Assembly (NCBI GenBank): GCA_024277475.1 | Contig: JAJRVC010000643.1 | Location: 1-16,920 of the forward strand | Reading direction: 5' to 3' | Source of the DNA: Deltaproteobacteria bacterium | GTDB lineage: Bacteria; Desulfobacterota; Desulfobacteria; Desulfobacterales; JAFDCJ01 | Length of the DNA stretch: 16,920 nucleotides | Shown here: positions 1-14,472 of the stretch, piece after piece | Position numbering within the stretch: position 1 is the stretch's first letter | How the letters are laid out: each line of letters begins with the position of its first letter | The notes under the pieces: model-generated | What the model was told of the DNA's origin: nothing | Database searches by the model: none | What the model saw: only the letters and a program-made list of their open reading frames with translations | Translations under genes and position numbers: made by a program

Positions 1-80
1 AAATAAAAATCATATAAAACTATGAAATATGGTAATGAACTTGGTGTAAATAGCGTGCCGACCATTTTTGTAAATGGATT

Positions 81-1115
81 TTAAGGACAATTTATCTTCC
101 CGAAGTTTAGCGCAAACTCATCCAAACCAAGTCCCCCCGAATCGAATATGTAATCCGCGAGATCCACTCCGTCAACATCCATATCGAAGTTACTATCACC
201 CGGGCAGGTATCAGCAGTCATCGAACAAATATCGCTGCCTGGAACCTGCAGATCCGGCACACAGTACAATCCGCTCTGACACTCCCCATCACCATCGCAG
301 TCCCCTTCGCCTTCAGCACACGGTCCGCAATCGCGGCAATAATCCGCATGGCCGACAGGATGCGGACAGACGGGTGCAACATCAAGGTACATCCAGCTTG
401 TAAGACTTACGCTGTCGTCATCCGTGACCGTGCTGGAAACAAGATAGGTTCCGGCTTCGGCATAGGTGTGGGAAGGGGAAATCTCTGTCGACGTAGTATC
501 ATCACCAAAGTTCCATTTTACCTGATCGATGGTTCCGTCCACATCGCTTGCTGTTAACTCAAAGTTCACTGTTAGTTCAGAAGGGTCTGCCTGGAAGCTC
601 ACGTTAGGAGCCATATTGTTATTTTGGGAGTTGTCAAGGCAATCGAGGAGACTATAGGCGTCGTTCGCCATGCGGTGTTCAATACGACTGACTTCGTCGA
701 CGGATGGCAACCCTTCAGCGCGCCAATGCGGCAGTAATTCATTAACGACTGAGCCAAAAATGTGGGCTTCAACTGGAAAAATACTCCTCTGTGTGCTCAA
801 TTCCTCCCATTTATTGTATAGAGACCGGGCGCGATCATACATGTCGCCGTTGCCAAGCCTCTCCGGAATGTCGGAAACAATGACCCATGTCGGCACGGCA
901 ATACTATAATTCGTTGGTCCCAAAATTACCCACATCGTCGCCAACCCGGGATCTTCATTCGATGCAACGCCATGCACGGCCATCGCAGACACGGTCGTGT
1001 TTCTTGCAATTGTAGATAGCAATCGACCCGGACCATAGCGTATAAATTCATAACCATTCGCTTGGTCATTGCCCTGGACGATCGTTTTGACACCAAGCTC
1101 ACCGATGCTGACCAA
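81..1115 (-). pseudogene. Ntn-hydrolase remainder, PKD domain, one Cys-rich repeat and dockerin-like tail
   Basis: This is the same frame continued after the amber codon at 1130-1128. Four sense codons separate that stop from a TTG at 1115, which has only a poor ribosome site, so separate translation is doubtful. In full-frame numbering, residues 227 to about 390 complete the hydrolase-like domain (it includes NEDPGLATMWVILG). Residues 396-473 form a PKD domain, with WNFGDD and SHTYAEAGTYLV. A single eight-Cys repeat follows at Cys476-Cys523. The end has a CPGDSNFDMDVDGVDLADY segment with the Asp/Asn pattern of a dockerin or EF-hand-like calcium loop, then a terminal NCP. The TAA stop is at 83-81. 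It is the only Cys-repeat protein here with one copy instead of four, and the only one with something after the repeats. No domain is damaged apart from the amber codon, which points to a very recent lesion or a functional readthrough. Confidence 0.6.
225..368 (-). repeat. Single Cys-rich repeat unit (copy 1 of 17)
   Basis: It encodes one eight-cysteine unit, from CPHPVGHADYC to GSDIC, with the core YCRDCGPCAEGEGDCD. It is slightly longer than the other copies, by a PDL insertion between Cys7 and Cys8. It lies between the PKD domain and the dockerin-like tail. Confidence 0.85.
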
Positions 1116-1127
1116 TCCTGATACATT

Positions 1128-1793
1128 CTACGTTCCGCTGTAATAACGCCCTAATATATCAATATCATCGGTGCCGTTTGTTTGCTGATGAAATTCGTTT
1201 GCCCGGACGACAAAACCCAAAAGACCCTGTGCTTCACGGTCAGGGGCCATGCTATCATATTCTAAAACCCAATTTGATCTGTTGACCTCGAACATGCTGG
1301 CATTGTCATTTGCATCGATAAACGGAAAACAGCCGGAAAAATCAGAAGAAGATTCAACGCTTGCGTGAATATAGTCTCTAATGTCATTTAGATTGTCGTG
1401 GGTTTTTAGTATGTAATTTAATAAAGTCTTATTCGGTGCGGTTATGCCCGGCGTATAAACAAAAGGATTTCCCCCGGCCACCCCGGCCTCATTTAAGCCC
1501 ATCGCAACCTCACCGTCCTGGCTGCGAACACCAATATAATCATTAGGAGTGCTTGAAACATGAACAAGCTGCTGACGTGCTGCGGTAATATCACGAACCT
1601 TCCACATGATAGGGCGGCCATCCACGGTCACATCTCCATTAGCCAGACCAATAGTACATCCCTCGCGCAGACGCATTGGAATTGTGTGATGGCGTGAATA
1701 GTATTTCGATGGTATGTGCCGCAATGCTCCGATGGCTGCAGTAGTGCTGAATAATATTGCAACAAAACCACTTACCGTTAATATCGGTTTCAT
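1128..1793 (-). pseudogene. Ntn-hydrolase-like secreted protein, N-terminal part, ended by an in-frame amber codon
   Basis: This is the 5' part (221 codons) of a 570-codon frame running from 1793 to 81 that is broken only by a TAG at 1130-1128. The ATG at 1793 follows a GGAAG-like ribosome site. A signal peptide spans about residues 1-23. Cys46 in REGCTIGLANGDVTVDGRPI, followed by a VRD, resembles the new N-terminal nucleophile region of the choloylglycine hydrolase / acyltransferase C45 type of Ntn-hydrolases (typically C-T...T.DG....R..D). Family knowledge suggests hydrolysis of a linear amide bond outside the cytoplasm, after self-processing before Cys46; the substrate is unknown. The TAG falls inside the hydrolase domain, because the downstream frame continues with domain-like sequence. 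Either a recent nonsense mutation or stop readthrough would explain this. The specific family is tentative. Confidence 0.6.
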
Positions 1794-1920
1794 TCTTCCA
1801 ATACCCTAAATTGGTAGGCCCTCAAAAAGGAACGAAAAGCACAATAGTAGATAAGATACCCGGGTCCGGAGGACCAGGTTTTCAATGCTATATTAAAGCT
1901 GTAACTACTCATAACGGTAG

Positions 1921-3273
1921 TTACGGTGCCTGGCAGGTATCGGTCCCCGGAATCTGGACGCAGACCAGGCCGCTCTGACATTCCCCATCGCTATCACAAT
2001 CACCTTCGCCTTCCGCACACGGCCCACAATCGCGGCAGTAATCAAGATCACCCAAGGCAAGTGTACAGCCCTCACGCCGGCAAGTATCGACGCCTGGTAT
2101 TTGCACGCAGGTTAAATCCGCCTGACATTCACTATTGTTATCGCAATCACCTTCGCCTTCCGTACAGGGACCGCAATCCCTGCAATAATTTAAGTGACCC
2201 ACGGGGTATGGACAAACCGGTTCACATTGATCAACTCCTGGGACTTGGTTACAGACCAGTCCGCTCTCACACTCACTGTCGCTATCGCAATCGCCTTCAC
2301 CCTCGGCACAAGGTCCACAATCGCGACAATAATCAAAATGACCCAAAGGAAGTGCACAGGCCTCACTCCGGCAAGTATCGACGCCTGGAATCTGTACACA
2401 AACTAGTCCGCCCTCACATTCGCTGTTATTATCACAGTCCCCTATGCCCTCGGCGCATGGGCCACAATCGCGGCAGTAGTCCAAATGGCCTGAAGGCCAG
2501 GGGCAAGGCCGCAAAACACCCCTCAGAGCGGAAAACCAGAGGTCCGCCATTTTGGCATAGCCGGTATCGAATGGATGAAGATCATCAGACATATCGCCGA
2601 CGGGAGATCGGTCGTAATCAATACCGGCATCATTTTGCATATCCACCAGAATGATTTTATCTCCCCCGTTATATCTGGGGAAAAAGACGTAATCTCTGAC
2701 ATCATTGTTAAAAGCGGTTGTCTCCGCCGATTTTGCACACGGTTCAATGAATGGAACGCAACTGCGATCGATAATAAGGGATAGAATCACCCATACGGCT
2801 TTGCCGGATGCGAACTCGTAGTCATCAATCACAACCAGAATATCTTCAATCTCAGTCCAGTTTTGGTTGTTGAAACTAATATCATTGGTTCCGATATGTA
2901 ATAAGACGATGTCCGGTTCTTCGGCAACCAGCCATTCGTCCAGTTTGCCTTCCCATGGCTCCGCAGACCTTCCGGAGACAATTTCATCGGCCCTCCAACC
3001 ACCATGCCCTTCATGGTCCTTGTCAAAATCATTTAGAATGCCGTTGTAATGGCTTCCGACGAAATCGACTGAGAAGCTGGCATCAATCAATGTAATATAC
3101 AACGAGCGTCGATATCCTGTGTCGTCGGTACTGCCGACTACGCCCCTTGTGATGGAATCCCCCAGCGGCATGATTCTGTTGGCTGCGCCGGCTGTTGAAA
3201 TTAAGATTATGTAGCAAAAAAATACAAAGAATATAAATAGGCTTTCGTTTTTAAGGCTCATTTGCCGTCTCAT
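1921..3273 (-). CDS. Secreted SGNH/GDSL esterase (CE3-like) with four Cys-rich repeats
   Basis: This is a secreted esterase of 450 residues. An N-terminal signal peptide ends near residue 30 (STAGA-A). The catalytic domain has GDSIT (Ser40), a DHEGHGGWRADEI block at about 86-98, HIGTND with Asn130, and DDLHP giving the D230/H233 pair. The order PLGDSIT, GYRRSLY, VDFVGS, DHEGHGGW is that of carbohydrate esterase family 3 (acetylxylan-esterase-like) rather than a generic lipase. Deacetylation of a polysaccharide outside the cell is therefore the likely reaction (inference). Residues 257-450 are four eight-Cys repeats. The second ATG, five codons in, is an alternative start with a slightly better GAGACGG site; both keep the signal peptide. 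The gene lies 127 bp upstream of the amber-split hydrolase on the same strand. Confidence 0.85.
   Translation of the reverse strand: MRRQMSLKNESLFIFFVFFCYIILISTAGAANRIMPLGDSITRGVVGSTDDTGYRRSLYITLIDASFSVDFVGSHYNGILNDFDKDHEGHGGWRADEIVSGRSAEPWEGKLDEWLVAEEPDIVLLHIGTNDISFNNQNWTEIEDILVVIDDYEFASGKAVWVILSLIIDRSCVPFIEPCAKSAETTAFNNDVRDYVFFPRYNGGDKIILVDMQNDAGIDYDRSPVGDMSDDLHPFDTGYAKMADLWFSALRGVLRPCPWPSGHLDYCRDCGPCAEGIGDCDNNSECEGGLVCVQIPGVDTCRSEACALPLGHFDYCRDCGPCAEGEGDCDSDSECESGLVCNQVPGVDQCEPVCPYPVGHLNYCRDCGPCTEGEGDCDNNSECQADLTCVQIPGVDTCRREGCTLALGDLDYCRDCGPCAEGEGDCDSDGECQSGLVCVQIPGTDTCQAP
1924..2505 (-). repeat. Array of four Cys-rich repeats (esterase)
   Basis: Four tandem units each encode C-x(8-9)-C-x2-C-x2-C-x6-C-x5-C-x5-C-x8-C. 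Spacing of the shared YCRDC codons is 147, 144 and 147 bp. These copies are more diverged from each other than those in the two proteins at 3452-5155 and 6913-8166 (for example HLDYC, HFDYC, HLNYC, DLDYC). Confidence 0.9.
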
Positions 3274-3375
3274 CTTTTTCTGACAGGATCACAAGGATGA
3301 GCATGATAGAGAAATAAGAGTCCAAAATAAATCCTGATAATTCTGTAAATCTTGTCTATATAAATAGATAGCAAA

Positions 3376-3399
3376 GGCAGAGCCATTTCTGGCTCTGCC
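3376..3399 (-). terminator. Probable rho-independent terminator of the beta-propeller gene
   Basis: A perfect 10-bp stem (GGCAGAGCCA / TGGCTCTGCC) has a 4-nt loop. It lies 53 bp beyond the stop codon at 3452 and, read on the minus strand, is followed by a short T-rich stretch (TTTGCTATC). It separates the beta-propeller gene from the esterase gene. The T-tract is weak, so termination may be partial. Confidence 0.65.
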
Positions 3400-3451
3400 C
3401 GATGTTCCAAAACGACTATCTCCTGATACAATTCATCTGCCTGGTTGCGGA

Positions 3452-5155
3452 TTACGGCGTCTGGCAGGTATCGGTGCCTATAACCTGAACACAGACCAGG
3501 CCGCTCTGGCATTCGCCGTTATTGTCGCAATCGCCTTGTCCGACGCCACAGGGCCCACAATCGCGGCAATAATCCAAACTGCCCACCGGATGCGGACAAG
3601 CAGCAGACTGGCAGGTATCGACACCCGGAACCTGATTACAGGTCAAGCCGCTCTGACACTCACTGTCACTGTCGCAATCACCCTCGCCCGCCGCGCACGG
3701 TCCACAATCCCGGCAGTAATCCAAACTACCCACAGGCGGACAACTACCCGCAGACTGGCAGATATCGGTGCCTGGAACCTGATTACAGCTCAATCCGCTC
3801 TGGCACTCACTGTCACTGTCGCAATCACCCTCGCCCGCCGCACACGGTCCACAATCCCGGCAGTAATCCAAACTGCCCACCGGCGGACAACCACCCGATG
3901 GCTGGCAGGTATCGACACCCGGAACCTGATTACAGCTCAATCCGCTCTGACACTCACTATCCGTATCGCAATCACCCTGCCCCGTGGCGCACGGTCCGCA
4001 ATCACGGCAATAATCCAGGTGACCTATGGGCAATGAACAGGGCCGGTACTTAAACAGATAGTATCCGTCACCGGCAGCATAGCCGACACTGGCATTGATC
4101 ATCGATATCGTATTAAGCGCACTTGAACCTGTCCAACTTGAAAATAAAATGAGAAGATCATCGGCCTCTAAATCTATCGACCAGGTTTTTCCATAATTCG
4201 CAGTCTTGTAAATTTTACCCTCAATCTTGCCGAAAGCATTGCGCCCGGCTACCCAACCCTGCCATGTCGTAACCATATCGACATCGCTTGGCACAAGTTG
4301 TTCCGGGAGCGTCGCTGCTGTCCAGGGCGTAACACCTCCTTCGGGTGGATATCCGGAGTAGTATATCGATCCACCCTGGCCAAAGCTATTCCAAATGCCG
4401 ACGCCATGGCTCTTTACAAAGTCAACGGTATCCATATAGGATATGTTGGCGCTGGCATCGTTCCAATGACCGCCATATTGTGCATCAGAAGCGTAAAGTC
4501 GCGCAGCACCGAGAATTATTCCCCAACCCCCGCCATAAACCATATCGTCGGGATCAACGTAGATACCCCAAAATGTTTTATTCGCGACAGGGCTGCTAAT
4601 TAATTTCCAGCTTTGGCCGTAATTAGAACTGTAAAGAATTGTAGAAGATTCGCCTACTGCCCAAATATAAGAGGGCCATCTTGCTTCAACCCCCCAGATA
4701 TATCCATGATTACCTGGAAAGGGTCGCGAAACCCAGCTTGTTCCACCGTTCGTTGTTACTTTAACGCCTTGAATCGTAATTGTCTTAAAATCGGGCCATC
4801 CTGATATTATCCGGGTCTCATCGTATAAGATAAGACCAAAATTGCCTGTTTCGTCAAAGACTATATCTTTATATTTCATCAGGACTGAGTGAAAAACTTG
4901 CGACCAAGTTTTACCGCCATCGTTTGTCCGATACACGTAGGTCTGCCCATTAGATGATGAAGTTTCGGCAATCAGCCACCCATGATTCTCAGTCTGGAAC
5001 TCCAGATCGATTATCTCAATGTCATCGGGATTGGGATAAAGCGCTTTAAGCTCCTGAATCTCCTGGGCAGTCCAATTGCTGGCCGCTTGCGATACGATTG
5101 GCGCCGAAATTATCAAAAAAAATATTAAATAGCTTATGCCTTTAAGTCCTCGCAT
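3452..5155 (-). CDS. Secreted Asp-box beta-propeller protein with four Cys-rich repeats
   Basis: It encodes 567 residues from the ATG at 5155. That start is chosen over an ATG at 5251 because the signal peptide (MRGLKGISYLIFFLIISAPI, cleavage near residue 24) begins there and a G-run ribosome site lies directly upstream. Residues 27-370 contain at least four Asp-box motifs: TNDGGKTW (77-84), TNGGTSW (135-141), SNYGQSW (177-183) and TANYGKTW (318-325). Asp boxes mark BNR/sialidase-type or Ycf48-like beta-propellers. No sialidase active-site set is obvious, so a binding or scaffold role is as likely as catalysis. Residues 373-567 are four eight-Cys repeats. The start codon is preceded by an A8-G10 homopolymer tract, which could make expression variable. 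Confidence 0.82.
   Translation of the reverse strand: MRGLKGISYLIFFLIISAPIVSQAASNWTAQEIQELKALYPNPDDIEIIDLEFQTENHGWLIAETSSSNGQTYVYRTNDGGKTWSQVFHSVLMKYKDIVFDETGNFGLILYDETRIISGWPDFKTITIQGVKVTTNGGTSWVSRPFPGNHGYIWGVEARWPSYIWAVGESSTILYSSNYGQSWKLISSPVANKTFWGIYVDPDDMVYGGGWGIILGAARLYASDAQYGGHWNDASANISYMDTVDFVKSHGVGIWNSFGQGGSIYYSGYPPEGGVTPWTAATLPEQLVPSDVDMVTTWQGWVAGRNAFGKIEGKIYKTANYGKTWSIDLEADDLLILFSSWTGSSALNTISMINASVGYAAGDGYYLFKYRPCSLPIGHLDYCRDCGPCATGQGDCDTDSECQSGLSCNQVPGVDTCQPSGGCPPVGSLDYCRDCGPCAAGEGDCDSDSECQSGLSCNQVPGTDICQSAGSCPPVGSLDYCRDCGPCAAGEGDCDSDSECQSGLTCNQVPGVDTCQSAACPHPVGSLDYCRDCGPCGVGQGDCDNNGECQSGLVCVQVIGTDTCQTP
3455..4039 (-). repeat. Array of four Cys-rich repeats (beta-propeller protein)
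   Basis: Four units have exactly 147-bp spacing between equivalent codons. The two middle units are nearly identical in DNA, which suggests recent duplication or gene conversion. The last unit (GVGQGDCDNNGEC) is the most divergent and resembles the last unit of the protein encoded at 6913-8166. Confidence 0.9.
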
Positions 5156-5177
5156 GCTGCCCCCCCCCCTTTTTTTT
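5156..5177 (-). promoter_or_regulatory. Homopolymeric A8-G10 tract acting as ribosome-binding region
   Basis: Read on the minus strand, eight A and ten G residues are followed by CAGC and then the ATG at 5155. The G-run is the only Shine-Dalgarno-like sequence for this gene. Tracts of this kind are prone to slipped-strand length change, which here would alter the spacing and strength of the ribosome site. The count could also be affected by sequencing error. Confidence 0.5.
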
Positions 5178-5274
5178 AAAACTTTTTTGTTTACTTCATT
5201 ACAAAATTTGTTTATTTCTATTCCTCTTTTATATTCAAATAAAAAGCTCATTCCTGAAATCGAAAAATTTAAAC

Positions 5275-5543
5275 TGATTTACCCTAACGTTGCAAAAGCC
5301 GGAGGGCTTCAGAGCCAAGGCGTCAAGGGTGAAGTTGTAGTCGTTTACCTCGAATCCTTGACAACACAGGATCTGAAGTTCTCCGGCTTTCCCGCAGGGT
5401 AAACAACATGGCAAAATCGACTCCATCCTTTAAATTCACAAATAGGAATATCCAGGAAATGGTGTTTGCACTATGATATCGGTTATAATAACGGACCATT
5501 AGCTATTCTTTGCCATGTTGTTTATGCAACATAGGGGTTTACT
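5275..5543. repeat. Dispersed ~270-bp structured repeat, copy 1 (MITE-like)
   Basis: It is highly similar to 11912-12182, nearly identical over the first 110 bp. It contains an 18-bp inverted repeat (5295-5312 with 5373-5390), fully pairable if G-U pairs are allowed. Inside it is a 7-bp stem (5322-5328 with 5356-5362). Next come a perfect 15-bp inverted repeat, AAACAACATGGCAAA at 5401-5415 and its complement at 5509-5523, and a small ATGTTG/CAACAT hairpin at the right end. The outer ends are degenerate inverted repeats (TTTACCCTAACG on the left, AGTAAACCCC as the complement on the right). An AGGGT-preceded ATG at 5408 opens a 22-codon frame. The likeliest reading is an internally deleted mobile element. 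It fills most of the gap between 5156 and 5645; the remaining ~100 bp has a weak hairpin near 5593-5621 and no gene. Confidence 0.75.
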
Positions 5544-5645
5544 TGAGGACCCGCTATGAACTATACAAAGCCCTGGAGGCATAAAATTGGGAACTTCAGA
5601 CGCCCTGTTAGGCAAAGAAGTGTCATTGCTAAAAAATTCAGATAT

Positions 5646-6740
5646 TTACTCCTTAAATCCATAGTCTCCATTCCCATCTTTTTTTGCTAAGTTGTTTCCC
5701 GCCTTCCTGAAAACATCTTCGAAATCTTCATTTAATTCGGCCAGCTTATTGATGGTATAATAGGTTTCTTCATCGAATGGCATTGTCTCAGTCACGGATA
5801 AGAGTTTTTCCCTGTATTCAATATTTTCATCTTGAGTTAATAACTTTGCTATTTTTTCAGTCCCAAAATCGCCCAACTTCAGTAAAGCCGCCATTGCGCC
5901 TTCGTACCCATTAACTTTTTTTTCAATCATATTCACTAAAATAGGCGCCACACCGGTATTCCGAATATTAGCAATTGCTTTTGAAACAATTGAATCAGCA
6001 TTGTCACTGCCCGGAGTCGTTGAGAGAGCCTGGATTAACATGTCAGTTGCCTCTTCGGATCCGATATTTGATAATGCAGTGGCGACTGGCATTAAAAGGG
6101 TATCATCCTCGTCATCTATTGCATCATTCATGTAATCGCCTAAATCGTATACAACTTCCGGATTTTTTATCTTTGATATTGCATTTAAAATCTTACTGCT
6201 CAGGTCCCCGTCGTATTTTGTTTTTTGATAACTGTCTACTAAAGCTGCGAGAGCATCGCTATCACCTATCCAGGCAAGCTGATTTACGGTATTTACCAAT
6301 TGGTCTGAATAATCGCGGTTAGCTAACAATTCTTCCAACTGATCCATCAGCATGGCTTTATTTTCTTGAAGGCCAAGATAATTCTCTAATGGATCCGGAT
6401 TATTATTGGCCGGCTCAAGTTTAGGGTCCAATTTAGAAGCGATTTTGTAATTATTTTTCTCCCGGTAATTTTCTTTTTGGCCATCTAAAGCCGGGGTGTC
6501 TTTAGGGTTTTCCTCTTCAGCCGAAAATATCTGATTTTCATTACCTCCAGCACCTGGATCCAATTGATTTTCAGTAAGCTTATTTCCGGGACGATCGTTG
6601 TTATTTGCTATGATTCCCGGTGATTTATATAAAATATTTATCATCGAAATACTTTGAAATAAAAATAGAAAAAATACTGATAGCAGCAACGCAAAACCAA
6701 CAAACGTTGACAGCAAGATAAGCTTCTTTTTGCTTTTCAC
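5646..6740 (-). CDS. Membrane-anchored HEAT-repeat protein
   Basis: It encodes about 364 residues from a GTG at 6740. That start is preferred over a TTG at 6785 because AAGAAGGGG lies 9 nt upstream and the membrane segment follows directly. Residues 4-28 (KKKLILLSTFVGFALLLSVF and onward) form one hydrophobic helix preceded by positive charges, so the rest is probably outside the cytoplasm. Residues 30-110 are a low-complexity linker rich in Asn, Glu and Pro. Residues from about 115 to 350 are helical repeats of the HEAT / PBS-lyase type (for example DSDALAALVDSYQ, PVATALSNIGSEEATDMLIQ, EGAMAALLKLGDFGTEKIAK). Such repeats bind proteins; no catalytic motif is seen. It is the only gene of the left cluster without Cys repeats, though it lies between two that have them. 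Confidence 0.7.
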   Translation of the reverse strand: MKSKKKLILLSTFVGFALLLSVFFLFLFQSISMINILYKSPGIIANNNDRPGNKLTENQLDPGAGGNENQIFSAEEENPKDTPALDGQKENYREKNNYKIASKLDPKLEPANNNPDPLENYLGLQENKAMLMDQLEELLANRDYSDQLVNTVNQLAWIGDSDALAALVDSYQKTKYDGDLSSKILNAISKIKNPEVVYDLGDYMNDAIDDEDDTLLMPVATALSNIGSEEATDMLIQALSTTPGSDNADSIVSKAIANIRNTGVAPILVNMIEKKVNGYEGAMAALLKLGDFGTEKIAKLLTQDENIEYREKLLSVTETMPFDEETYYTINKLAELNEDFEDVFRKAGNNLAKKDGNGDYGFKE

Positions 6741-6912
6741 GCGACCAAACCCCTTCTTATTGTGGAGCCCCCCCACCTTAATCAAAGGGAGGCTTCACTT
6801 CCGTTTCCCGGCTAAACCGGCTAACCGCTCAAGATCTTTGTCACAAATATCTTTTCCGGCAACTCATCATTTTCAACGCCGTTGCGCTAAAAACCCATGA
6901 ATTGTGCTATGG
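6741..6912 (-). other. Leader with hairpins between the Cys-repeat gene and the HEAT-repeat gene
   Basis: The minus-strand leader of the HEAT-repeat gene can form a near-perfect hairpin at 6853-6831 (AAGATATTTG...CAAAGATCTT) and CCGGTTTAGCCGG. It can also form an AGCCTCCC/GGGGGGCT stem just upstream of the start region. The hairpins could terminate the upstream gene or shape the leader of the HEAT-repeat gene. There is no strong T-tract, and no known riboswitch was recognised. Confidence 0.3.
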
Positions 6913-8166
6913 TTATTGGCAAGTATCGACACCTGGGATCTGAACACAGGTCAAACCGCTCAGACATTCACTGTTATTGTCACAATCACCTTGCCCGGCC
7001 CCACAGGGCCCACAGTCGCGGCAGTAATCCAAACTGCCCACAGGATGCGGACAAGCAGCAGGCTGGCAGGTATCGACACCCGGAACCTGATTGCAGGTCA
7101 ATCCGCTCTGACACTCACTGTTCGTGTCGCAATCCCCTTCGCCCGCCGCACACGGTCCACAATCCCGACAGTAATCCAAACTGCCCACAGGCGGACAACC
7201 ACCCGATGGCTGGCAGGTATCGACACCCGGAACCTGATTGCAGCTCAATCCGCTCTGACACTCACTGTTCGTGTCGCAATCCCCTTCGCCCGCCGCACAC
7301 GGTCCACAATCCCGGCAGTAATCCAAACTGCCCACAGGCGGACAACCACCCGATGGCTGGCAGGTATCGGTTCCCGGAACCTGATTGCAGGTCAAGCCGC
7401 TCTGACACTCACTGTCAGTGTCGCAATCCCCTTCGCCCGCCGCACACGGTCCACAATCCCGGCAGTAATCCAAACTGCCCACAGGCGGACAACCGCCGCC
7501 CGAACTTGCAAAGACTTGTAAATCCCGGACCGTATTTTCGCAAAAATCCGTTGCAAAGTATATTTCCGAAAATCCGGCGGTCCCTTCCAATGTCTGTAAG
7601 CCTGAAGTGGTGGTCGAATCGACGACGGCCCCGCCTGCACTCCAGTGTTCGTATGCCGTTGCTTTGAAATACGGTATTGGGTTCCAGACGTTCCTGGGAT
7701 CATTTATTCCATAGTATTCGTTATAGTTGGAACACCAATCATGCGACCATCTGAAGTCCGCCTTTTGTATTTTTTTTTCCTGCCAGGTACTTTGGTTGTT
7801 CCAAACCCAGCCAGGTGCCAGCGCATCGATAAATCTTATGACAAATTTACCCCTCTGCGTTTGCCAGTTCGTCTCACCACAGTTAGTGCCGATGAAACTG
7901 AAAAATATGCCATCTCCGCCCAGATCAATATCGCCCTTTATGTGATAAAGCGCCAATTGGGTTTCATTTGGATACCAGGTCGAACCGACCTGGACCCCCG
8001 TACTGTAATCGTTATCCGCGTCTACGTAAGTGATCGCGATGTTGCCGTTGCAAAGCCAACCCCCCGGAAAATTAACAGCCGCACCCTGGGCCTGGCTTAC
8101 TGTAAGAAGAAAAAAAGTTACTAAAGTAATCGCTAAACAATGCCCGACCTTATTCACTCTTTCCAT
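6913..8166 (-). CDS. Secreted protein with unrecognised N-terminal domain and four Cys-rich repeats
   Basis: It encodes 417 residues. The start at 8166 follows a G-rich site (AAAGGGGAGGGGGGAGCC). The signal peptide runs from residue 1 to about 29 (SQAQGA-AVN). Residues 30-225 match no family I recognise. This part is rich in aromatic residues and Asp (VDADNDYSTGVQVG, DIDLGGDGIFFSF, WVWNNQSTW, RWSHDWCSNYNEYYG), with a few Cys of its own, and looks like a beta-rich extracellular domain. It ends at CENTVRDLQVFASSGGG, a short linker to the repeats. Residues 226-417 are four eight-Cys repeats, three of them nearly identical. It follows the FN3 gene on the same strand across a gap of 965 bp, so it is probably transcribed separately. 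Confidence 0.8.
   Translation of the reverse strand: MERVNKVGHCLAITLVTFFLLTVSQAQGAAVNFPGGWLCNGNIAITYVDADNDYSTGVQVGSTWYPNETQLALYHIKGDIDLGGDGIFFSFIGTNCGETNWQTQRGKFVIRFIDALAPGWVWNNQSTWQEKKIQKADFRWSHDWCSNYNEYYGINDPRNVWNPIPYFKATAYEHWSAGGAVVDSTTTSGLQTLEGTAGFSEIYFATDFCENTVRDLQVFASSGGGCPPVGSLDYCRDCGPCAAGEGDCDTDSECQSGLTCNQVPGTDTCQPSGGCPPVGSLDYCRDCGPCAAGEGDCDTNSECQSGLSCNQVPGVDTCQPSGGCPPVGSLDYCRDCGPCAAGEGDCDTNSECQSGLTCNQVPGVDTCQPAACPHPVGSLDYCRDCGPCGAGQGDCDNNSECLSGLTCVQIPGVDTCQ
6916..7491 (-). repeat. Array of four Cys-rich repeats (unrecognised-domain protein)
   Basis: The units are spaced at exactly 147 bp (49 codons). Three of them differ at only a few bases and begin CPPVGSLDYCRDCGPC. The final unit begins CPHPVGSLDYC and ends in DTCQ followed by TAA. 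The near-identity is at DNA level, including third codon positions, so the array has been recently amplified or homogenised. Confidence 0.92.
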
Positions 8167-8353
8167 GGCTCCCCCCTCCCCTTTAATTACTGCTTTTAAA
8201 TTTCTTGGTAGTTTACACCGATATCCTTATTAACACATCCATCGGCAGACAGAATTATAAAACAGTTCCTGTGTTAATTATGCAAGAATCATACATTTCA
8301 ATATGTTGTGTTCGGCCATTGTGGTACCCTAAGTATTGTGTTATAAAAATATT

Positions 8354-8394
8354 ATTATGAAAAAAGTTACATCCTATTATGAAAAAAATTACAT
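8354..8394. repeat. Tandem 19-mer direct repeat
   Basis: ATTATGAAAAAAGTTACAT at 8354-8372 recurs at 8376-8394 with one mismatch, at 22-bp spacing, which is about two helical turns. The spacing would suit two adjacent protein-binding sites on one DNA face. The high A content means chance is possible. Confidence 0.5.
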
Positions 8395-8852
8395 AGGAAA
8401 TAAGGATCTTAATTCATAATATGTAAATAGAACTGGAGGCATTGATTTAATTCTATTGATAAGAAATCGCTTTTTAGAGACCACAATAAGCGAAAACAAT
8501 GAATTGTGTACCGAATTCGGCTACATCCCAATATCTGGAAACGTGCATGGAAACGTACAATGAGCGGAAATTAACAGTATTGAGTTATCAAACACGGATT
8601 GGATTGTCAAGGAAGATTTTATGCCGGGTGTGGTGACCTTATTTTGCTGATTTTTATATTCTTTTCAGTGCTTTAGATACTCGTCCGCAGTTTCCTGTAG
8701 AGAGGGAACGCTCGGCACTGGTTCCTCCCGGAAAGGGGGGTGTTTGTTTTATTACATATAAGCGCCGCCTCTGGCTAAAAAAAACGGCCAGTCTGATCGT
8801 AGAAGAAACTTTGGTCTTTGCTATTTTTATATGACGGGTTAACTAAAAAAAA

Positions 8853-8878
8853 TGAACGTCCAACATTGAACGTCCAAC
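8853..8878. repeat. Direct repeat of TGAACGTCCAAC
   Basis: Two perfect 12-mers (8853-8864 and 8867-8878) are spaced by 14 bp, followed by a partial third (GTCGAATAATG). It resembles short iterated intergenic words seen in some bacterial genomes; the function is unknown. Confidence 0.5.
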
Positions 8879-9131
8879 GTCGAATAATGTATTCTGTCTA
8901 TTAAAAAAAAGACAGAGCAACCTGTCGGGCCGAAGGCGAAGCCTGAAGTGATTCAATTCTTCGAAATTCAGCGGTTCGCTTGTTTTAAAATCGATAAAGC
9001 GTAGCGCCATCAATATTGACAATCCCGTAAAAAGTCAAAATTCTCAAATTTTTAACTTATAACCTATTGAAATAATTAAGTGTAAAATTATACTTTTGTG
9101 TTCTTTGTGCCTTTTTGCGGCCACATCAAAA

Positions 9132-10097
9132 TCAGGGATTCTGACAAATATCGACACCGGGTACCTGGGCACAAATCAGGCCGCTTTGACATTCACCGTC
9201 ATTATCACAATCGCCCTGGCCGGCAGAACAGGGTCCAAAATCGCGGCAGTAATCCAAATCACCTACGGGAAGTGAACTACTCTGGCACGTATCCGTGCCC
9301 GTAACCTGCACACAGGTCAGGCCGGACGCACACTCACTGTCACTATCACAGTCACCCTCACCAATACCACAAGGTCCAAAGTCACGGCAGTAATCCAGAT
9401 CTCCCACGGGAAGTGTTACCGTACTACTTTGCTGGCAGGTATCCGTGCCGATAACCTGCACACAAGTTAAACCGGATGCACATTCGCTGTCATTATCACA
9501 GTCACCTTCACCAAGACCACAAGGTCCAAAGTCGCGACAGTAATCCAGATCTCCCACGGGAAGTGTTACCGTACTACTTTGCTGGCAGGTATCCGTGCCG
9601 ATAACCTGCACACAAGTTAAACCGGATGCACATTCGCTGTCATTATCACAGTCACCCTCACCAGCAGCACAAGGTCCGAAGTCGCGGCAATAATCCAGAC
9701 TGCCAACAGGGTCCTGGACTACTTTAGGTAAAACATAGGCTTTCACCTCGTTTGAAAAGCCACTTTCATTCTGTTGGCTGTCATAGGCAGTGGCAGCGAA
9801 ATAATAGGTTGTACCCTCGTTAAGACCGGAGATGGTGCAGCTGGTGGAATTTCCCACATTAACGGTATATTGATAATTTCCGCTGGAATTGCCGTAGTGC
9901 ATTTTATAGCCGGCAATGTCGGGATCCGGGCTTTTGACCCAGGCAAGACTAACCGCAGCAGCGTTGGCCGGTAAAGGCGCAAGAGCAAGGACTAAAGAGA
10001 GAAAATAAAGAGGAAATCGGATGCCGCAGGATTTAGCCCCGAATATTATACCAACATAATTTATTGTTCTTTGGAAAACAGATCCTAACTTTTTCAA
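9132..10097 (-). CDS. Secreted fibronectin type III protein with four six-Cys variant repeats
   Basis: It encodes 321 residues from a TTG at 10097. The start is fixed by a strong GGAGGTG site 6 nt upstream and the absence of a better ATG. The N-terminus is long before the hydrophobic core (FPLYFLSLVLALAPLPANA), with cleavage near residue 47. Residues 48-124 form one FN3 domain (VSLAWVKSPDPDIAGYKMHY, TISGLNEGTTYYFAATAYD, SGFSNEV), a binding module. Residues 129-321 are four Cys-rich repeats of a distinct type, CRDFGPC in place of CRDCGPC, and all also lack the first cysteine. No enzymatic domain is present, so an adhesin or matrix-protein role is the simplest reading. Expression is very likely controlled by the c-di-GMP riboswitch in its leader. 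Confidence 0.85.
   Translation of the reverse strand: MKKLGSVFQRTINYVGIIFGAKSCGIRFPLYFLSLVLALAPLPANAAAVSLAWVKSPDPDIAGYKMHYGNSSGNYQYTVNVGNSTSCTISGLNEGTTYYFAATAYDSQQNESGFSNEVKAYVLPKVVQDPVGSLDYCRDFGPCAAGEGDCDNDSECASGLTCVQVIGTDTCQQSSTVTLPVGDLDYCRDFGPCGLGEGDCDNDSECASGLTCVQVIGTDTCQQSSTVTLPVGDLDYCRDFGPCGIGEGDCDSDSECASGLTCVQVTGTDTCQSSSLPVGDLDYCRDFGPCSAGQGDCDNDGECQSGLICAQVPGVDICQNP
9135..9710 (-). repeat. Array of four six-Cys variant repeats (FN3 protein)
   Basis: The units are spaced at 141, 150 and 150 bp. The two middle units are almost identical at DNA level. Every unit has Phe at the third Cys position and no Cys at the first position, leaving six cysteines. Linkers (QQSSTVTLPVGD) differ from those in the other arrays. 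Confidence 0.9.
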
Positions 10098-10122
10098 ATC
10101 AACACCTCCATTAACCTATTAA

Positions 10123-10144
10123 ATTCCCGCAAGTACCGTGCGGG
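10123..10144 (-). terminator. Possible expression-platform hairpin of the riboswitch leader
   Basis: On the minus strand, TCCCGCA-CGGTACT-TGCGGGA forms a compact stem-loop. It lies between the c-di-GMP aptamer and the GGAGGTG ribosome site, and is followed by AATTTAATAGG. It could act as the switched terminator, although the T-tract is poor. Control of ribosome access is an alternative. Confidence 0.4.
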
Positions 10145-10202
10145 ACGCGGCTAACAGAAGTGCCGTTTCCACCCCATATCGCCTGATAACGCGATTACGG
10201 AA

Positions 10203-10296
10203 TGGCCCACCCGGCAGCTCTGCTTTCCTGCTTTTTTGTTAAGCAGGATCAGTGGCTTTGCGTCCCACTCTCTCGAGTGGTTTGCCTTTTCGAGCA
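10203..10296 (-). ncRNA. Cyclic di-GMP-I (GEMM) riboswitch
   Basis: Read on the minus strand, the segment has the GEMM landmarks in order. First comes AAAAGGCAAACC, then a hairpin with a GNRA loop (CACTC-GAGA-GAGTG). Next is GGGACGCAAAGCCAC, then a second stem (TCCTGCTT...AAGCAGGA), and finally GCTGCCGGGT. These match the conserved core and tetraloop-receptor layout of the c-di-GMP-I class. The aptamer ends about 105 nt before the TTG start of the FN3/Cys-repeat protein, leaving room for an expression platform. Riboswitches of this class often control motility, pili, adhesion or matrix genes. Whether c-di-GMP turns this one on or off cannot be read from sequence alone. Confidence 0.93.
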
Positions 10297-10835
10297 ATTT
10301 TTATTCACATCAGCCCCCGCCCGCTTCGCCTGAACGAAAACGATCCGCCTGCCGTCTAAAATATAGGGGCAGGTGATGGCGGGGATTATCGCCATGTTGT
10401 AAAAACAACATGGCAAAGGATTATTGGAAGCATGAATGAAGCAAAACGGGTGCCAAGATGAAAAAAAATTATACAGAAGAAAATAACATGGAAGAATTTT
10501 TGACTAATCTACCTCAATTATTCAATATAATTATTAGAAGACTGGACTGCGGGATCTACACGAATACGTTGGTAGTAAATGCCCTTATTTAGCAATGTGT
10601 GGTTTTTTATACAACCGTTTTAACAAAATCATACATTATCAGTCGGATTGCGACGGGTTTTACGGCTCCATCAATAAATAATCCGTCCGACCAAAGTCGG
10701 CAGCAAACTTTGCTGAATCACCGGCATCGTCGAAGATTGCCGGGCCTTGCCCGCCAACCTGCTGCAGGTGGTGCGAACAACACCGGAAGGCTTGATAACC
10801 CCTCGTTGTGTTTGACAATTAGTTGTGCAAAATAT
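10297..10835. other. Non-coding region with no recognised gene
   Basis: It holds a perfect inverted repeat (GCCATGTTGT at 10391-10400, ACAACATGGC at 10405-10414) that shares its word with the ~270-bp repeats. A 44-codon frame at 10458-10592 (+) has a weak ribosome site and no recognised similarity. The stretch 10660-10800 is GC-richer than its surroundings and could be an eroded gene, but I cannot assign it. Confidence 0.4.
10391..10414. repeat. Perfect inverted repeat related to the ~270-bp element
   Basis: GCCATGTTGT and ACAACATGGC are separated by AAAA. The same word forms the 15-bp inverted repeat in the elements at 5275-5543 and 11912-12182, here with the arms in the opposite order. It is either a remnant end of the same family or a separate palindromic site. 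Confidence 0.55.
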
Positions 10836-10846
10836 GAAGGTTGATA

Positions 10847-10875
10847 TTGCACAATAAGGGACATGATAGTATAGT
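10847..10875 (+). promoter_or_regulatory. Probable sigma-70 promoter of the sulfotransferase gene
   Basis: TTGCAC at 10847-10852 and TATAGT at 10870-10875 are separated by exactly 17 bp. The surrounding block (GAAGGTTGA...GTATAGTTTA) recurs at 12239-12290. The predicted leader is about 145 nt and includes the hairpin at 10908-10927. Confidence 0.6.
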
Positions 10876-10907
10876 TTACATAGTATTTGAGGAGATTTAG
10901 TCAACTA

Positions 10908-10927
10908 CCATCGGCTGAAGCCGATGG
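10908..10927. repeat. Perfect 20-bp palindromic hairpin CCATCGGCTGAAGCCGATGG
   Basis: A 9-bp perfect stem has a GA centre, followed by CTTGGGG. Hairpins of this type occur at the ends of IS200/IS605-family elements, so it may be a solitary end left after loss of the element. It also lies in the predicted 5' leader of the sulfotransferase and could affect transcript stability. Confidence 0.45.
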
Positions 10928-11027
10928 CTTGGGGTTCGAGGATTCAAGGGGTTGTGAAAAAAATTAAGGTTAACATTTTTTTATTGCGCACGCTTACCAA
11001 AAGTACACCTGAGATCAAGGTAATACC

Positions 11028-11870
11028 ATGAAAGAATACTTACCGAATCTGTTTGTGATCGGTGCTATGAAGGCTGGAACAACAAGCCTGCATCGTTATC
11101 TTGCCGTTCACCCGGAAATTTGGATGTCGCATCACAAAGAACTCGATTTCTTTATCGAGCTTAGAAATTGGAACCGGGGGATCAACTGGTACGCATCCCA
11201 TTTTCAGGAAGAAGCCTTTATCCGGGGAGAGTCTTCTCCCGGATACACCAATTATCCCTACCACGGCAAAGTACCGCAACGCATGCATTCCCTGGTTCCC
11301 GACGCCAAACTGATCTATATCCTGCGCAACCCTTTGGACCGGATTGTTTCCGACTATTCACATCGCTTCCGGGAAAAAAGCGAACGTCGCTCTATTCAGG
11401 ATGCTTTGGGTGGAAAGGACACCAAAGGCTATGTCAACCGCAGTCGCTATTTTCTACAGATCTCGCAATACCTGCGTTTTTATCCACTGGAACGTATCCT
11501 GATCATCACCCAGGAAGAGCTGCTCGCGAAACGGATGGACACCCTGCAGAAGGTATTCCGGTTCCTGGAGGTTGACGAATCATTCAAATCCAAAGAGTTT
11601 GTCACCCTGTTTCACCGTTCGGGCGGTAAGCCCCGGCTGAATAAAACGGGACGTATCCTATCGAGGGCACTGGGTCTTCTCCCTTTGGCACAATTGTCAC
11701 CCCACCGTACCAGACAACTGGAACATTTCCTCACCGGGCCTTTTTTATTACCTGTCGAACGACCCCGCCTTGACCCCGCACTGCGAGAACACCTGGTCCA
11801 CCAATTGGAACCGGACCTGGATCGTTTGAAAGAGCTCACCGGTCGTGACTTTGCAAACTGGTCCTTATAG
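11028..11870 (+). CDS. PAPS-dependent sulfotransferase
   Basis: It encodes 280 residues; the ATG follows AAGGT with 6-nt spacing. The N-terminal GAMKAGTTSLHRYL (residues 12-25) is the 5'-phosphosulfate-binding loop, with the conserved Lys-Ala-Gly-Thr-Thr. LRNPLDRIVSDYSH near residues 99-112 is the 3'-phosphate-binding motif, with the conserved Arg and Ser. Length and motif order fit the Sulfotransfer_1 / heparan-sulfate sulfotransferase type found in bacterial polysaccharide loci. It should move sulfate from PAPS to a hydroxyl or amino group of a sugar, in the cytoplasm during glycan assembly. It has its own promoter block and a TAG stop, and is separated from the next gene by 512 bp containing a repeat element, so it is not in the same simple operon. 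The acceptor is unknown. Confidence 0.9.
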   Translation: MKEYLPNLFVIGAMKAGTTSLHRYLAVHPEIWMSHHKELDFFIELRNWNRGINWYASHFQEEAFIRGESSPGYTNYPYHGKVPQRMHSLVPDAKLIYILRNPLDRIVSDYSHRFREKSERRSIQDALGGKDTKGYVNRSRYFLQISQYLRFYPLERILIITQEELLAKRMDTLQKVFRFLEVDESFKSKEFVTLFHRSGGKPRLNKTGRILSRALGLLPLAQLSPHRTRQLEHFLTGPFLLPVERPRLDPALREHLVHQLEPDLDRLKELTGRDFANWSL

Positions 11871-11911
11871 CCCGAATTCCCCACTGGAAACCAACCGGAA
11901 TGATGAATCCG

Positions 11912-12182
11912 TGAGTTAACCTTAACGTTGCAAAAGCCGGAGGGCTTCAGAGCCAAGGCGTCAAGGGTGAAGTTGTAGTCGTTTACCTCGAATCCTTGAC
12001 AACACAGGATCTGGAGTCCTCCGGTTTTCCTGAAGGGTAAACAACATGGCAAAATCGACCTCATCCTTTGAATTCACAAAGGAAGACATCCACAAAATGG
12101 TGCTTTCACTATTATATCGTGTATAATTACAGATCATTAGATATTCTTTGCCATGTTATTTATGCAACATGGAGGTTAACCC
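11912..12182. repeat. Dispersed ~270-bp structured repeat, copy 2 (MITE-like)
   Basis: It matches 5275-5543 throughout. The 18-bp stem is at 11933-11950 with 12011-12028, again fully pairable with G-U although three bases of the right arm differ from copy 1. The 15-bp inverted repeat is at 12039-12053 with 12147-12161 (one mismatch). The ends carry GTTAACC and GGTTAAC inverted repeats. A GGGTA-preceded ATG at 12046 opens a 26-codon frame (MAKSTSSFEFTKEDIHKMVL...) resembling the frame in copy 1 but with many amino acid changes, so it is not under coding constraint. It sits between the sulfotransferase and the glycosyltransferase operon; the rest of that gap (12183-12382) holds a promoter and no gene. 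Confidence 0.75.
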
Positions 12183-12256
12183 TCGACTCTTTCCGGATCA
12201 TGGTGGCCCTAACGCTGTAAAAATTACCGGACACAGCCTGAAGGTTGACTTTGATA

Positions 12257-12285
12257 TTGCATAAAATCGGGCATGGTAGTATAGT
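12257..12285 (+). promoter_or_regulatory. Probable sigma-70 promoter of the glycan operon
   Basis: TTGCAT at 12257-12262 and TATAGT at 12280-12285 are separated by exactly 17 bp. The block from 12239 to 12290 is similar to the one upstream of the sulfotransferase, with a 3-base insertion before the -35. The predicted leader is about 90 nt. Confidence 0.6.
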
Positions 12286-12382
12286 TTATATATTGTTGCA
12301 GTGCCGCAGTAAAATCACAAACCTCATTATTACCCCAATGTCAGGGTTTAACAGAAAACTCCACTCAAAAAAGCGATGCTAA

Positions 12383-13414
12383 ATGAATAATAATGACCCT
12401 CTCGTAAGTGTATTGACTCCGGTCTATAATGGTGAGCCTTATTTAGAAGCCTGCATTCAGAGTGTTTTAAGACAAACGTATCAAAATTGGGAGTATGTGA
12501 TTGTCAACAACTGCAGTAGGGATAATTCGCTGAATATCGCGCAAAAATATGCGGAAAAAGACGATAGAATTCGGATCTGCACGAATACTGAGTTTCTCCC
12601 AATGGTTGCAAATTTCAATCATGCCGTCAAAGAAACCTCGCCGGATAGCGCGTATTGTAAAATTATCCATTCAGACGATCTGATGTTTGACAATTGCCTC
12701 GAAAAAATGGTGGCTTTAGCGGAATCAAACCCATCCGTCGGCGTTGTCGGTTCATATGTCCTGCAGGGTGATAAGGTTGTGGGCAATGGGCTTTCTTATC
12801 CGCAAACTGTCTTTCCCGGAAGAGAACTCTGCAGAAGATCGCTTAATATAAGATCTGCCCCGGGACGCATTTATGTGTTTGGATCGCCCTCTTCCCTATT
12901 GATTAGATCCGATTTAATTCGCGAGCGGGACCCATTATATAACGATAAATACAATATGTGTGTCGACCAGGAGCTGTGTTATTACCTGTTACAACAGCGA
13001 GACTTTGGTTTCAACCATGAAATTTTGACCTATTCGCGTGTCCATCATCAGTCGGTGACCTCCTCTATCAATGAACACAATCGAGAGATCATTGAAGAAC
13101 TCATGCTGATGCAAGACTATGGTCCGATCTATTTTGAGGGAAAAGAGCATGAAAAACGTTTCGAGCAATCCATCGAGCGACTTTACAAATTTTTATCAAC
13201 CAGTATTTTTCAGAAAAAAGATAAAGAATTTTGGAAATTTCAAAAAGAGGGACTAGACAGATTAAATATCCGCTTCAATCGAGTCAAATTATTCTCCGGA
13301 GCGTTGGAGGTGCTGGCGAATAAAATAACCCATCGCTTGTTTCACCCGTCACTGACCTGGAAAAAATACGTGCAGGATAGCCCGAAAAATACCGAATTCA
13401 GACGAACTATATGA
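12383..13414 (+). CDS. Family 2 glycosyltransferase
   Basis: It encodes 343 residues. The GT-A fold is clear: VSVLTPVYNGEPYLEACIQS at residues 8-27, VLRQTYQNWEYVIVNNCSRD next, and IIHSDDLM with the DxD-like metal site near residues 94-101. VDQELCYYLLQ near 193-203 matches the ED-type catalytic region. The family transfers a sugar from a nucleotide sugar to a growing glycan or lipid-linked acceptor; the sugar cannot be read from the sequence. The C-terminal ~100 residues are helical and charged without membrane segments, so a soluble or peripheral enzyme is expected. It is the first gene of an operon, and its TGA overlaps the next ATG by 4 bp. No good Shine-Dalgarno is seen before the ATG. Confidence 0.88.
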   Translation: MNNNDPLVSVLTPVYNGEPYLEACIQSVLRQTYQNWEYVIVNNCSRDNSLNIAQKYAEKDDRIRICTNTEFLPMVANFNHAVKETSPDSAYCKIIHSDDLMFDNCLEKMVALAESNPSVGVVGSYVLQGDKVVGNGLSYPQTVFPGRELCRRSLNIRSAPGRIYVFGSPSSLLIRSDLIRERDPLYNDKYNMCVDQELCYYLLQQRDFGFNHEILTYSRVHHQSVTSSINEHNREIIEELMLMQDYGPIYFEGKEHEKRFEQSIERLYKFLSTSIFQKKDKEFWKFQKEGLDRLNIRFNRVKLFSGALEVLANKITHRLFHPSLTWKKYVQDSPKNTEFRRTI

Positions 13415-14472
13415 AAAGTCATCTTAAAAAAGTGAGATTAGCCATTATCGGGGCCGGTGCAATTACAGAAGGAAGCTATCTTCCGGCGGCGAAGCTGATT
13501 CCTCATTTGGAAATCACCCACATTGTTGATCTTGATCAGGTGCGCGCCAAACAGGTGGCCGCAGACTTTCAAGTACCCATGGCTATAAGCGATTACCATG
13601 AGTTGTTCGGCAAGATTGATGGCGTAGTGGTTGCAACCCCTCCAAGCTCTCACGCCCGGATAAGCATGGATTTCATGAATGCGGCTATCTCCGTGCTTTG
13701 TGAAAAGCCGATCGCGTTAACACTGGCGGAAGCTGGAGAAATGGTAGAAACCGGGAAAACTACCCATATTCATTTAGCGGTTGCCATGAACCGACGTTTA
13801 AGCCGGAGTGCAAGAATATTAAAACAGCTCGTCAACGACAACCTGCTTGGCAATATCACCCATTTTGAGGCTGCCGAAGGCTACGAGTATAATTGGCCTT
13901 TGCGTACCGGACATGTTTTTCTAAATCCCAATCACCGCGGTATCATCAGCGATATCGGACCCCACTTGTTTGATTTGCTTTTGTGGTTATTTAATCAGTC
14001 CCCGGCCAGGGTTAAAAAATGTGAGGACGACAATTGGGGCGGTATCGAAGCCAATGCGACAGTGGATCTTGAGTTGGAAAATGCCGGCCACACCATTTAC
14101 GGGCAGGTTGAATTCAGTTGGACCCGAATGCTTCATAATTCCATTCGAATTTACGGAGAAAATGGCATGCTCGAGGCCTCTATTATTGGCGGTCCAAAAG
14201 TAAATTACTATCCGAAGGGATCTGCAGACAAAGGGCTTAGCGTGCAGAGCACAGATGACACCCCCCCAATCGCAAATAGTGAATTTGTTCAGCAACTTTT
14301 AAACTTTACCGATTCAATCACTCAAAACCAAGTGAAATATGTGCCTGCCGAACAAGCCCTTGCGCCCATGATGTTGATCGAAGACTGCTACAAACTAAGA
14401 ACGATAAATCCGCAACCATGGGAGGAAAAATGGTTGAAATCATTTTTCAGGAACAACTTAAATGCCAAATAA
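13411..14472 (+). CDS. Gfo/Idh/MocA-family NAD(P)-dependent oxidoreductase
   Basis: It encodes 353 residues. The Rossmann motif IIGAGAITEGSYLPA lies at residues 12-26. The family signature CEKPIA is at about residues 96-101, with the catalytic Lys, and DIGPHLFDLLLWL near 184-196 supplies the catalytic His. Members oxidise, reduce or epimerise sugars, often UDP- or other nucleotide-sugars in surface-glycan pathways, or cyclitols. The start codon overlaps the preceding stop (ATGA), which implies translational coupling. The stop overlaps the next gene by 11 bp. The context makes a nucleotide-sugar dehydrogenase or similar step the best guess; the substrate is not determined. Confidence 0.88.
   Translation: MKSHLKKVRLAIIGAGAITEGSYLPAAKLIPHLEITHIVDLDQVRAKQVAADFQVPMAISDYHELFGKIDGVVVATPPSSHARISMDFMNAAISVLCEKPIALTLAEAGEMVETGKTTHIHLAVAMNRRLSRSARILKQLVNDNLLGNITHFEAAEGYEYNWPLRTGHVFLNPNHRGIISDIGPHLFDLLLWLFNQSPARVKKCEDDNWGGIEANATVDLELENAGHTIYGQVEFSWTRMLHNSIRIYGENGMLEASIIGGPKVNYYPKGSADKGLSVQSTDDTPPIANSEFVQQLLNFTDSITQNQVKYVPAEQALAPMMLIEDCYKLRTINPQPWEEKWLKSFFRNNLNAK

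Follow-up and report, generated by a model that had tools for sequence, protein, structure and literature searches.

Several systems are known in which one small module is shared by many secreted proteins. Type I dockerins (PF00404), the tails of cellulosomal proteins, are found behind many secreted fronts and often at the C-terminus, and CBM1 and the CBM10/fungal dockerins are short cysteine-rich modules on many secreted enzymes. Here we describe a cysteine-rich repeat unit encoded in the window, i.e. positions 1–16,920 of contig JAJRVC010000643.1 of a Deltaproteobacteria bacterium (assembly GCA_024277475.1). Like the dockerins, the unit is a single small tail on many secreted fronts and is often C-terminal. 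It differs from type I dockerin in being disulfide-rich and in lacking the EF-hand pair; no cohesin was found, and the window proteins gave no PF00404 match with an E of 1 or below. Of the readings considered, the most likely, though still tentative, is that the unit works as a common extracellular docking or attachment tail through which many secreted proteins would share one partner.

The repeat unit and its carriers

The sequence-only reading of the window had reported seventeen copies of an eight-cysteine module behind five unrelated front ends. Seventeen units of 44–48 residues were located by pattern between positions 225 and 9716 of the minus strand (one in protein P1, four each in P2, P3, P5 and P6), which agrees with the coordinates reported earlier. 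A six-frame scan for the cysteine core recovered the same 17 copies; all of them lie on the minus strand in the frames of the five long genes, and none elsewhere. The fronts, a C45-type hydrolase with a PKD domain (P1), a GDSL esterase (P2), an Asp-box propeller (P3), a CBM-like beta-sandwich (P5) and an FN3 domain (P6), are indeed unrelated. In the alignment of the window units (A1) 21 of the 48 columns are invariant. The proposed spacing, C-x8/9-C-x2-C-x2-C-x6-C-x5-C-x5-C-x8-C, describes most copies but not all. Eight cysteines are present in 13 of the 17 units, 12 of which have this spacing while the P1 unit ends with x11; the four units of P6, behind FN3, have six, Cys1 being absent and Cys3 replaced by Phe.

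A protein search with a four-unit query returned 417 proteins at E≤1e-3. The best 120, three of which are the window's own, were examined, and the unit was confirmed by a profile hidden Markov model (HMM) in all of them. The 98 fronts longer than 80 residues fall into 52 BLAST clusters with 33 singletons, in agreement with the expected attachment to diverse enzymes and other fronts. Named fronts include trypsin, matrixin, GDSL, glucose/sorbosone dehydrogenase and sortilin/BNR, together with what, from their accessions, we take to be M4, M23, subtilase and C10 peptidases. Thus one module occurs on many unrelated, mostly exported fronts. The genomes G006 and G002 contain 8 and 7 frames with units, in each case at the C-terminal end; contig ends truncate some of these frames. 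A scan of 13 of the 15 showed fronts of the glucose/sorbosone dehydrogenase, sortilin/BNR, GDSL and LVIVD types in both genomes, whereas matrixin exceeded its cut-off in one of three matches and trypsin remained below it.

The expectations that the unit is always secreted and always C-terminal hold for the larger part of these proteins. A crude test, run without a control set, found a hydrophobic N-terminal segment in 95 of the 120; among the 25 in which it did not, a number start inside a domain and look cut by eye. There was no clear case of cytoplasmic use in the 120 proteins. One odd front, a glycosyltransferase match followed by six units (P0041), lies on a 1578-base contig and may be a chimera. 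At most 25 residues follow the last unit in 86 proteins and more do so in 34, among them P0013, P0054 and P0071 with 243–504 residues. In 20 proteins the first unit is no more than 60 residues from the N-terminus; some of these are fragments or consist of units. The number of units per protein is 2–12, most often four, as in the query itself, and single units also occur. Seven proteins have 12 units, and six of these are mostly units. Two Acidobacteria-labelled records each encode a protein that consists of almost nothing but 12 units (L004:5161-7422 and L005:3-2294, the latter frame running past the start of the record).

A scan of genome contigs with A1 gave 23 loci, labelled Acidobacteria, Desulfosarcina, Binatia, Myxococcales, Omnitrophota, Chromatiaceae, Proteobacteria, other bacteria and two archaea. 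The archaeal labels are those of L016 and L021 (Aenigmatarchaeota, Nanoarchaeota), and a further frame from the genome of L016 (L079) has a NosD-like front. Most carriers are metagenome-assembled genomes, and they belong to several phyla. Within phyla, named as in the record labels and counted with the seed genome included, the unit is rare: for the Desulfosarcina-labelled genome, A1 searches found it in 3 of 395 genomes at the phylum level and 1 of 30 at the family level, and searches with a second alignment (A2) in 7 of 396 for L001 (Acidobacteria), 1 of 285 for L006 (Omnitrophota) and 14 of 282 for L009 (Myxococcales). It also occurs on a viral contig with a terminase (phrog_38), as one unit in a 203-residue protein with a signal-peptide-like start, encoded close to the terminase gene (L062:3962-4573).

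Two classes of units can be distinguished in the 120 proteins by the distance between Cys7 and Cys8, which is x8 in 108 units, as in the window, and x16 in 392; 28 of the proteins are mainly of the short class. The cysteines are rigidly conserved except for a coupled pair. Of 621 units 145 were dropped as too gapped, a selection that favours seeing Cys2 and Cys4–8 as invariant; in the 476 kept, Cys1 and Cys3 are both absent in 191, both present in 266 and mixed in 19, the units not being independent of each other, so that a p-value for the coupling is not to be taken literally. A count by regular expression, which missed most short-class units, gave the same picture (340, 171 and 28 of 539). 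Because both cysteines nearly always vanish together, the pattern suggests that Cys1 and Cys3 are joined as one disulfide.

Tail exchange and possible function

In the pairs compared, the type of tail follows the source and not the front. The tails of P3 and P5 are 87.9% identical, on fronts that are unrelated; at the DNA level these tails agree at 87.2% over 556 bp, a likeness that ends no more than 10 bases from the stop codons. P3 and its ortholog P0060, on the other hand, are 78.8% identical in the fronts and 51.6% in the tails, and for P3 and P0094 these values are 82.8% and 56.1%. Outside the window, the tails of P0060 and P0121 are 84.9% identical over 371 residues including an extra C-terminal domain, again on unrelated fronts; P5 and P0121 share 74% in the front and 41% in the tail. 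On the basis of these pairs, tails are exchanged on fronts that are retained, and the same cassette can be attached to two fronts within one source. In the Desulfosarcina-labelled genome, which has two unit genes with BNR and trypsin fronts, the tails are 83–87% identical in DNA. Unit identity between proteins of the window (74.6%) exceeds that across genomes (45–56%, the comparison genomes all being of the long class), as it does in G001 (80.1% against 50–56%) and G010 (75.6%, from three pairs, against 43–50%). The extra domain behind the units of P0060 and P0121 comprises about 145 residues, has no family name and appears shortened in L002 and P0085.

In relatives of two of the window fronts the position of the unit is taken by attachment-type ends. 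Proteins with a P5-type front end in long-class units (P0121), one unit (P0122), Calx-beta (P0125), FG-GAP (P0126–P0128) or, in P0124, type I dockerin (23.4 bits, cut-off 22.9). For the second part of P1 117 matches were obtained and 65 were inspected (P0130–P0194), a few of which share only the PKD domain. The HMM detected the unit in none of these 65. Their ends, mostly judged by eye, are dockerin-type repeats, PEP-CTERM-like segments, one membrane helix or nothing. Dockerin thus occupies the position of the unit in relatives of both fronts.

This replacement of attachment-type ends, together with the exchange of tails on retained fronts, is the main ground for considering the unit an attachment tail. 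The unit would be a small, disulfide-locked and very acidic extracellular module that can be passed between genes as a tandem cassette. By means of this tail a wide range of secreted proteins would be held to the same partner outside the cell, probably part of the matrix or surface of that cell itself, in a manner like that of a dockerin or a binding-module tail. The earlier suggestion of a common targeting, surface-attachment or matrix-binding module is in agreement with the finding of one extracellular module on unrelated fronts, at the place where relatives have attachment-type ends; the binding itself is a prediction. If it is correct, the tail would tell the destination of dozens of uncharacterised secreted proteins and offer a small and robust fusion tag. 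That tail type can go with source rather than front makes the docking idea directly testable.

A number of observations weigh against such a function. The tail likeness could be explained by recombination or by common descent of the tail class alone. P3 and a third ortholog, P0026, share 82.6% in the front and still 78.8% in the short-class tail. The P2 tail is 68.6–69.4% identical to those of P5 and P3, and P0032, a GDSL relative from another source, reaches 72.3 and 69.7%; the P2 tail is about equally close to its own orthologs (65–66%). The P6 units are mostly 61–75% identical in DNA to units of other window genes, so that P3 and P5 are the only window genes whose tails stand out as close. 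Identities of 81–82% are reached between single units of P0122 and those of P0032 and P0026. The excess of identity within genomes is slight in G002 and G006 (64.3 and 63.7%, with 61.3% between the two) and absent in G003 (53.0 against 45–53%) and G007 (46.4 against 47–51%). The protein set represents the best 120 of 417 matches to a four-unit query and includes the window's own three; in it 34 proteins continue beyond the units, as noted above, and about five, judged by eye, resemble lipoproteins that have a different anchor. No gene for a partner was found, and no neighbouring family occurs in more than 2 of 25 stretches (two families, at two loci each). Finally, a riboswitch precedes one of the five unit genes of the window and none lies ahead of the other four.

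Several of these points would fit a tail that has no specific partner and acts as a stiff and acidic stalk or solubility spacer resistant to proteases, where likeness within a source results from gene conversion or descent of repeated DNA. Tandem repeats recombine readily, lipoprotein-like examples exist, a partner gene was not found and only two window tails are specially close. The composition also fits a spacer, the cysteine content being high and the mean net charge −7.8 per unit (584 of 621 units), or −15.5 per 100 residues compared to −4.8 per 100 residues for the fronts. However, conservation is not restricted to cysteines, as the profile residues Gly22, Asp23, Asp25, Gly41 and Asp51 are constant at 96–99%. 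Furthermore, single units occur, and dockerins are found at the same position in relatives of the fronts. We consider the spacer explanation somewhat unlikely.

The attachment reading can be extended to a genome-wide code, in which each lineage would have its own version of the tail fitted to its own partner. Recombination would stamp this version on the secreted proteins, and the tails would be replaced together when the partner changes. Such a system, scattered over bacteria and carried by phage, would be analogous to dockerin–cohesin pairs without being related to them. In this extended form the proposal is decidedly unlikely.

The frequent terminal position and the combination of many fronts with one tail might alternatively point to a signal for export or sorting that a secretion system recognises, comparable to the C-terminal domains of type IX secretion. 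The 34 proteins that have more behind the last unit argue against this, as do the variable number of units and the origin of the records from several phyla, including the two labelled as archaeal. We regard a sorting signal as very unlikely.

Predicted fold and relation to named families

None of the window units matched a Pfam model at its cut-off, and in the Pfam and NCBIfam copies searched the module is without a name of its own, although it recurs on proteases, esterases and other secreted proteins. In literature searches covering titles and opening parts of abstracts, no paper describing a bacterial module of this kind was found. By sequence, the closest family with a name is Dickkopf_N (PF04706); the Dickkopf domain is part of animal signalling proteins. 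The sequence-only reading had considered this likeness to be one of pattern only, which is not supported by a comparison with controls in which all non-cysteine residues of each unit were shuffled once and the cysteines kept in place. Dickkopf_N was matched at E≤0.1 by 39 of 82 real units (best 2.2e-5) and by 0 of 82 shuffled ones. Because the cysteine-preserving shuffles give no matches, the unit is akin to Dickkopf_N in sequence beyond the cysteine spacing.

Whether the units are strict Dickkopf-type domains, which would share ancestry with the animal domain and bind a protein receptor, is a different matter. In their favour, and as a match to a known domain of the kind the earlier reading had regarded as refuting it, the profile exceeds its cut-off of 25 bits in some unit-bearing relatives: in one set of six proteins it does so in two, P0005 (50.4 bits) and P0006 (46.1), and it does so in L067 (37.5). 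Precomputed domain annotations also name it in 16 of the 120 proteins. In the window, in contrast, the best score is 12.5 bits. The units further differ in forming tandem bacterial tails, in most match rows the best stretch spans mainly the second half of the profile, and the PDB match to Dickkopf 2 has an E of only 3.6. We regard strict Dickkopf identity as very unlikely.

Other matches were taken as cross-matches of cysteine-rich sequence, i.e. Dumpy_DPY, RQC, CBM_1, UPF0506 and toxin families. Some nonetheless exceed their cut-offs, namely Dumpy_DPY in P0003 and P0020, RQC in P0020 and CBM_1 in P0003. The unit differs from CBM_1 in that its matches to this family are weak (22.2 bits in P0003 with a cut-off of 20.6, 20.3 and thus below it in P0020, and 10.0 in the window). 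PF27052 was rejected as a name for the module; P0114, of which the front is cut, has four units and no PF27052, and among the 120 listed proteins the label is confined to the cluster with trypsin-type fronts. P0113 has a variant in which extra cysteine follows Cys7, ahead of Cys8, and which ends in a CC pair; it has nine matches in 525 residues and no Pfam family at E≤0.001.

The proposal that the units share a disulfide fold was examined with an AlphaFold2 model of a single unit, P5 unit 2. The model is confident, with a predicted local distance difference test score (pLDDT) of 91.3; of five models two scored about 91 and three about 71–74. No good structural match was obtained (E of at least 2.5 in Foldseek, at least 1.7 in a viral structure library). 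For a colipase-like fold and disulfide pattern, too, the comparison comprised ten Foldseek matches, all of them weak. The model weakly resembles knottins: spider-toxin chains, which we take to be knottins, account for six of ten Foldseek matches, all weak, and for all four rows of a structural second look that covered ten chains, so that the absence of other folds there means little. In an alignment with the inhibitor cystine knot peptide Pn3a (5t4r), the unit Cys4, Cys5, Cys6 and Cys7 correspond to knottin Cys I, II, III and V, and the structures overlay over 28 residues at 1.3 Å, extending to Cys8. With the knottin numbering and pairing, this alignment and overlay would give disulfides 5–7 and 6–8, and 2–4 then follows by elimination; we thus infer the pairing 1–3, 2–4, 5–7 and 6–8. 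The unit differs from inhibitor cystine knots in having an extra N-terminal cysteine, in the weakness of the scores and in lacking Cys IV, no cysteine being found beside Cys6 at that place in the rows shown of A1 and A2, so that no knot is formed. A role of the units as knottin-like inhibitors, protecting the enzymes to which they are attached or acting on foreign proteases, is extremely improbable, even though several fronts are proteases.

Genes of the window and their surroundings

The minus-strand run from 10097 to 81 comprises six protein genes, of which all but the third in order, P4, carry the repeat; the frame of P1 is broken. The first gene, P6 (9132–10097), is an open frame with a TTG start and GGAGG upstream of it. 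It encodes a signal-peptide-like N-terminus, an FN3 domain (about 9744–9965; fn3 32.3 bits, above the Pfam cut-off) and its six-cysteine units at 9585–9716, 9435–9566, 9285–9416 and 9144–9275. P5 (6913–8166) was delineated from the open frame, relatives of the front and the fold. A signal-peptide-like N-terminus is followed by the beta-sandwich (about 7495–8094) and by units at 7360–7491, 7213–7344 (the modelled one), 7066–7197 and 6919–7053, identified, as are those of P3 and P2, by the cysteine pattern. P4 (5646–6785), between unit-bearing genes, has HEAT repeats and a hydrophobic N-terminal segment.

The Asp-box/BNR propeller gene P3 (3452–5251; PSII_BNR 29.5 bits, above cut-off) has units at 3905–4039, 3758–3889, 3611–3742 and 3464–3598. 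Its true start is more likely at 5155 than at 5251, judging from the database copy P0009, which starts there. In P2 (1921–3273) the GDSL/SGNH esterase front (about 2554–3165; Lipase_GDSL_2 44.3 and Lipase_GDSL 41.1 bits, both above cut-off) is followed by units at 2371–2505, 2224–2358, 2080–2214 and 1933–2067.

P1 (81–1793) encodes the C45-type hydrolase (C45_proenzyme, 30.2 bits, below its cut-off of 85), the PKD domain (about 402–614; PKD_4 54.6 bits) and one eight-cysteine unit (225–368). This unit is not the last element, as it is followed by a dockerin-like stretch (84–206) with one EF-hand-like loop, recognised by eye and without a Pfam match; the GDSL relative P0056 has, by eye, a similar end. 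An in-frame TAG at 1128–1130 separates the hydrolase part of P1 from the rest. Decoding of TAG as a residue in this genome was rejected, because TAG terminates two genes on the plus strand of the window. As uncut relatives also exist, the interruption looks like the result of gene breakage or of an error in sequencing.

A c-di-GMP-I-GGC riboswitch aptamer (RF03167; 63.5 bits, Rfam gathering threshold 59, E 3e-13) is located at 10209–10295 on the minus strand, 111 nt upstream of P6, through which the FN3 protein would be induced by a cyclic dinucleotide. The ligand may be cyclic di-GMP or cyclic AMP-GMP, because relatives of c-di-GMP-I riboswitches can sense the latter instead (PMC7266159). A second riboswitch was not detected in 1–11000, where just two weak matches to other families appeared up to E 1. 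Matches to RF01051 are present in 4 of 13 unit-bearing genomes. A riboswitch leading unit genes elsewhere was rejected, the two candidates lying about 2 and 2.6 kb away (L006, L002) and not upstream of them. At L002 a gene for a 233-residue protein with, by eye, a PEP-CTERM-like end (L002:5244-5945) directly follows a c-di-GMP-I riboswitch, about 2 kb from the unit gene.

A sequence of about 267 bp that lies outside any unit is present twice in direct orientation, at 5278–5542, ahead of the Asp-box gene, and at 11916–12180, behind a sulfotransferase gene; the two copies are 88.8% identical. The plus strand from 11028 to 16563 encodes this sulfotransferase, two glycosyltransferases, a Gfo/Idh oxidoreductase and an epimerase, which resembles a surface-polysaccharide locus beside the unit genes.

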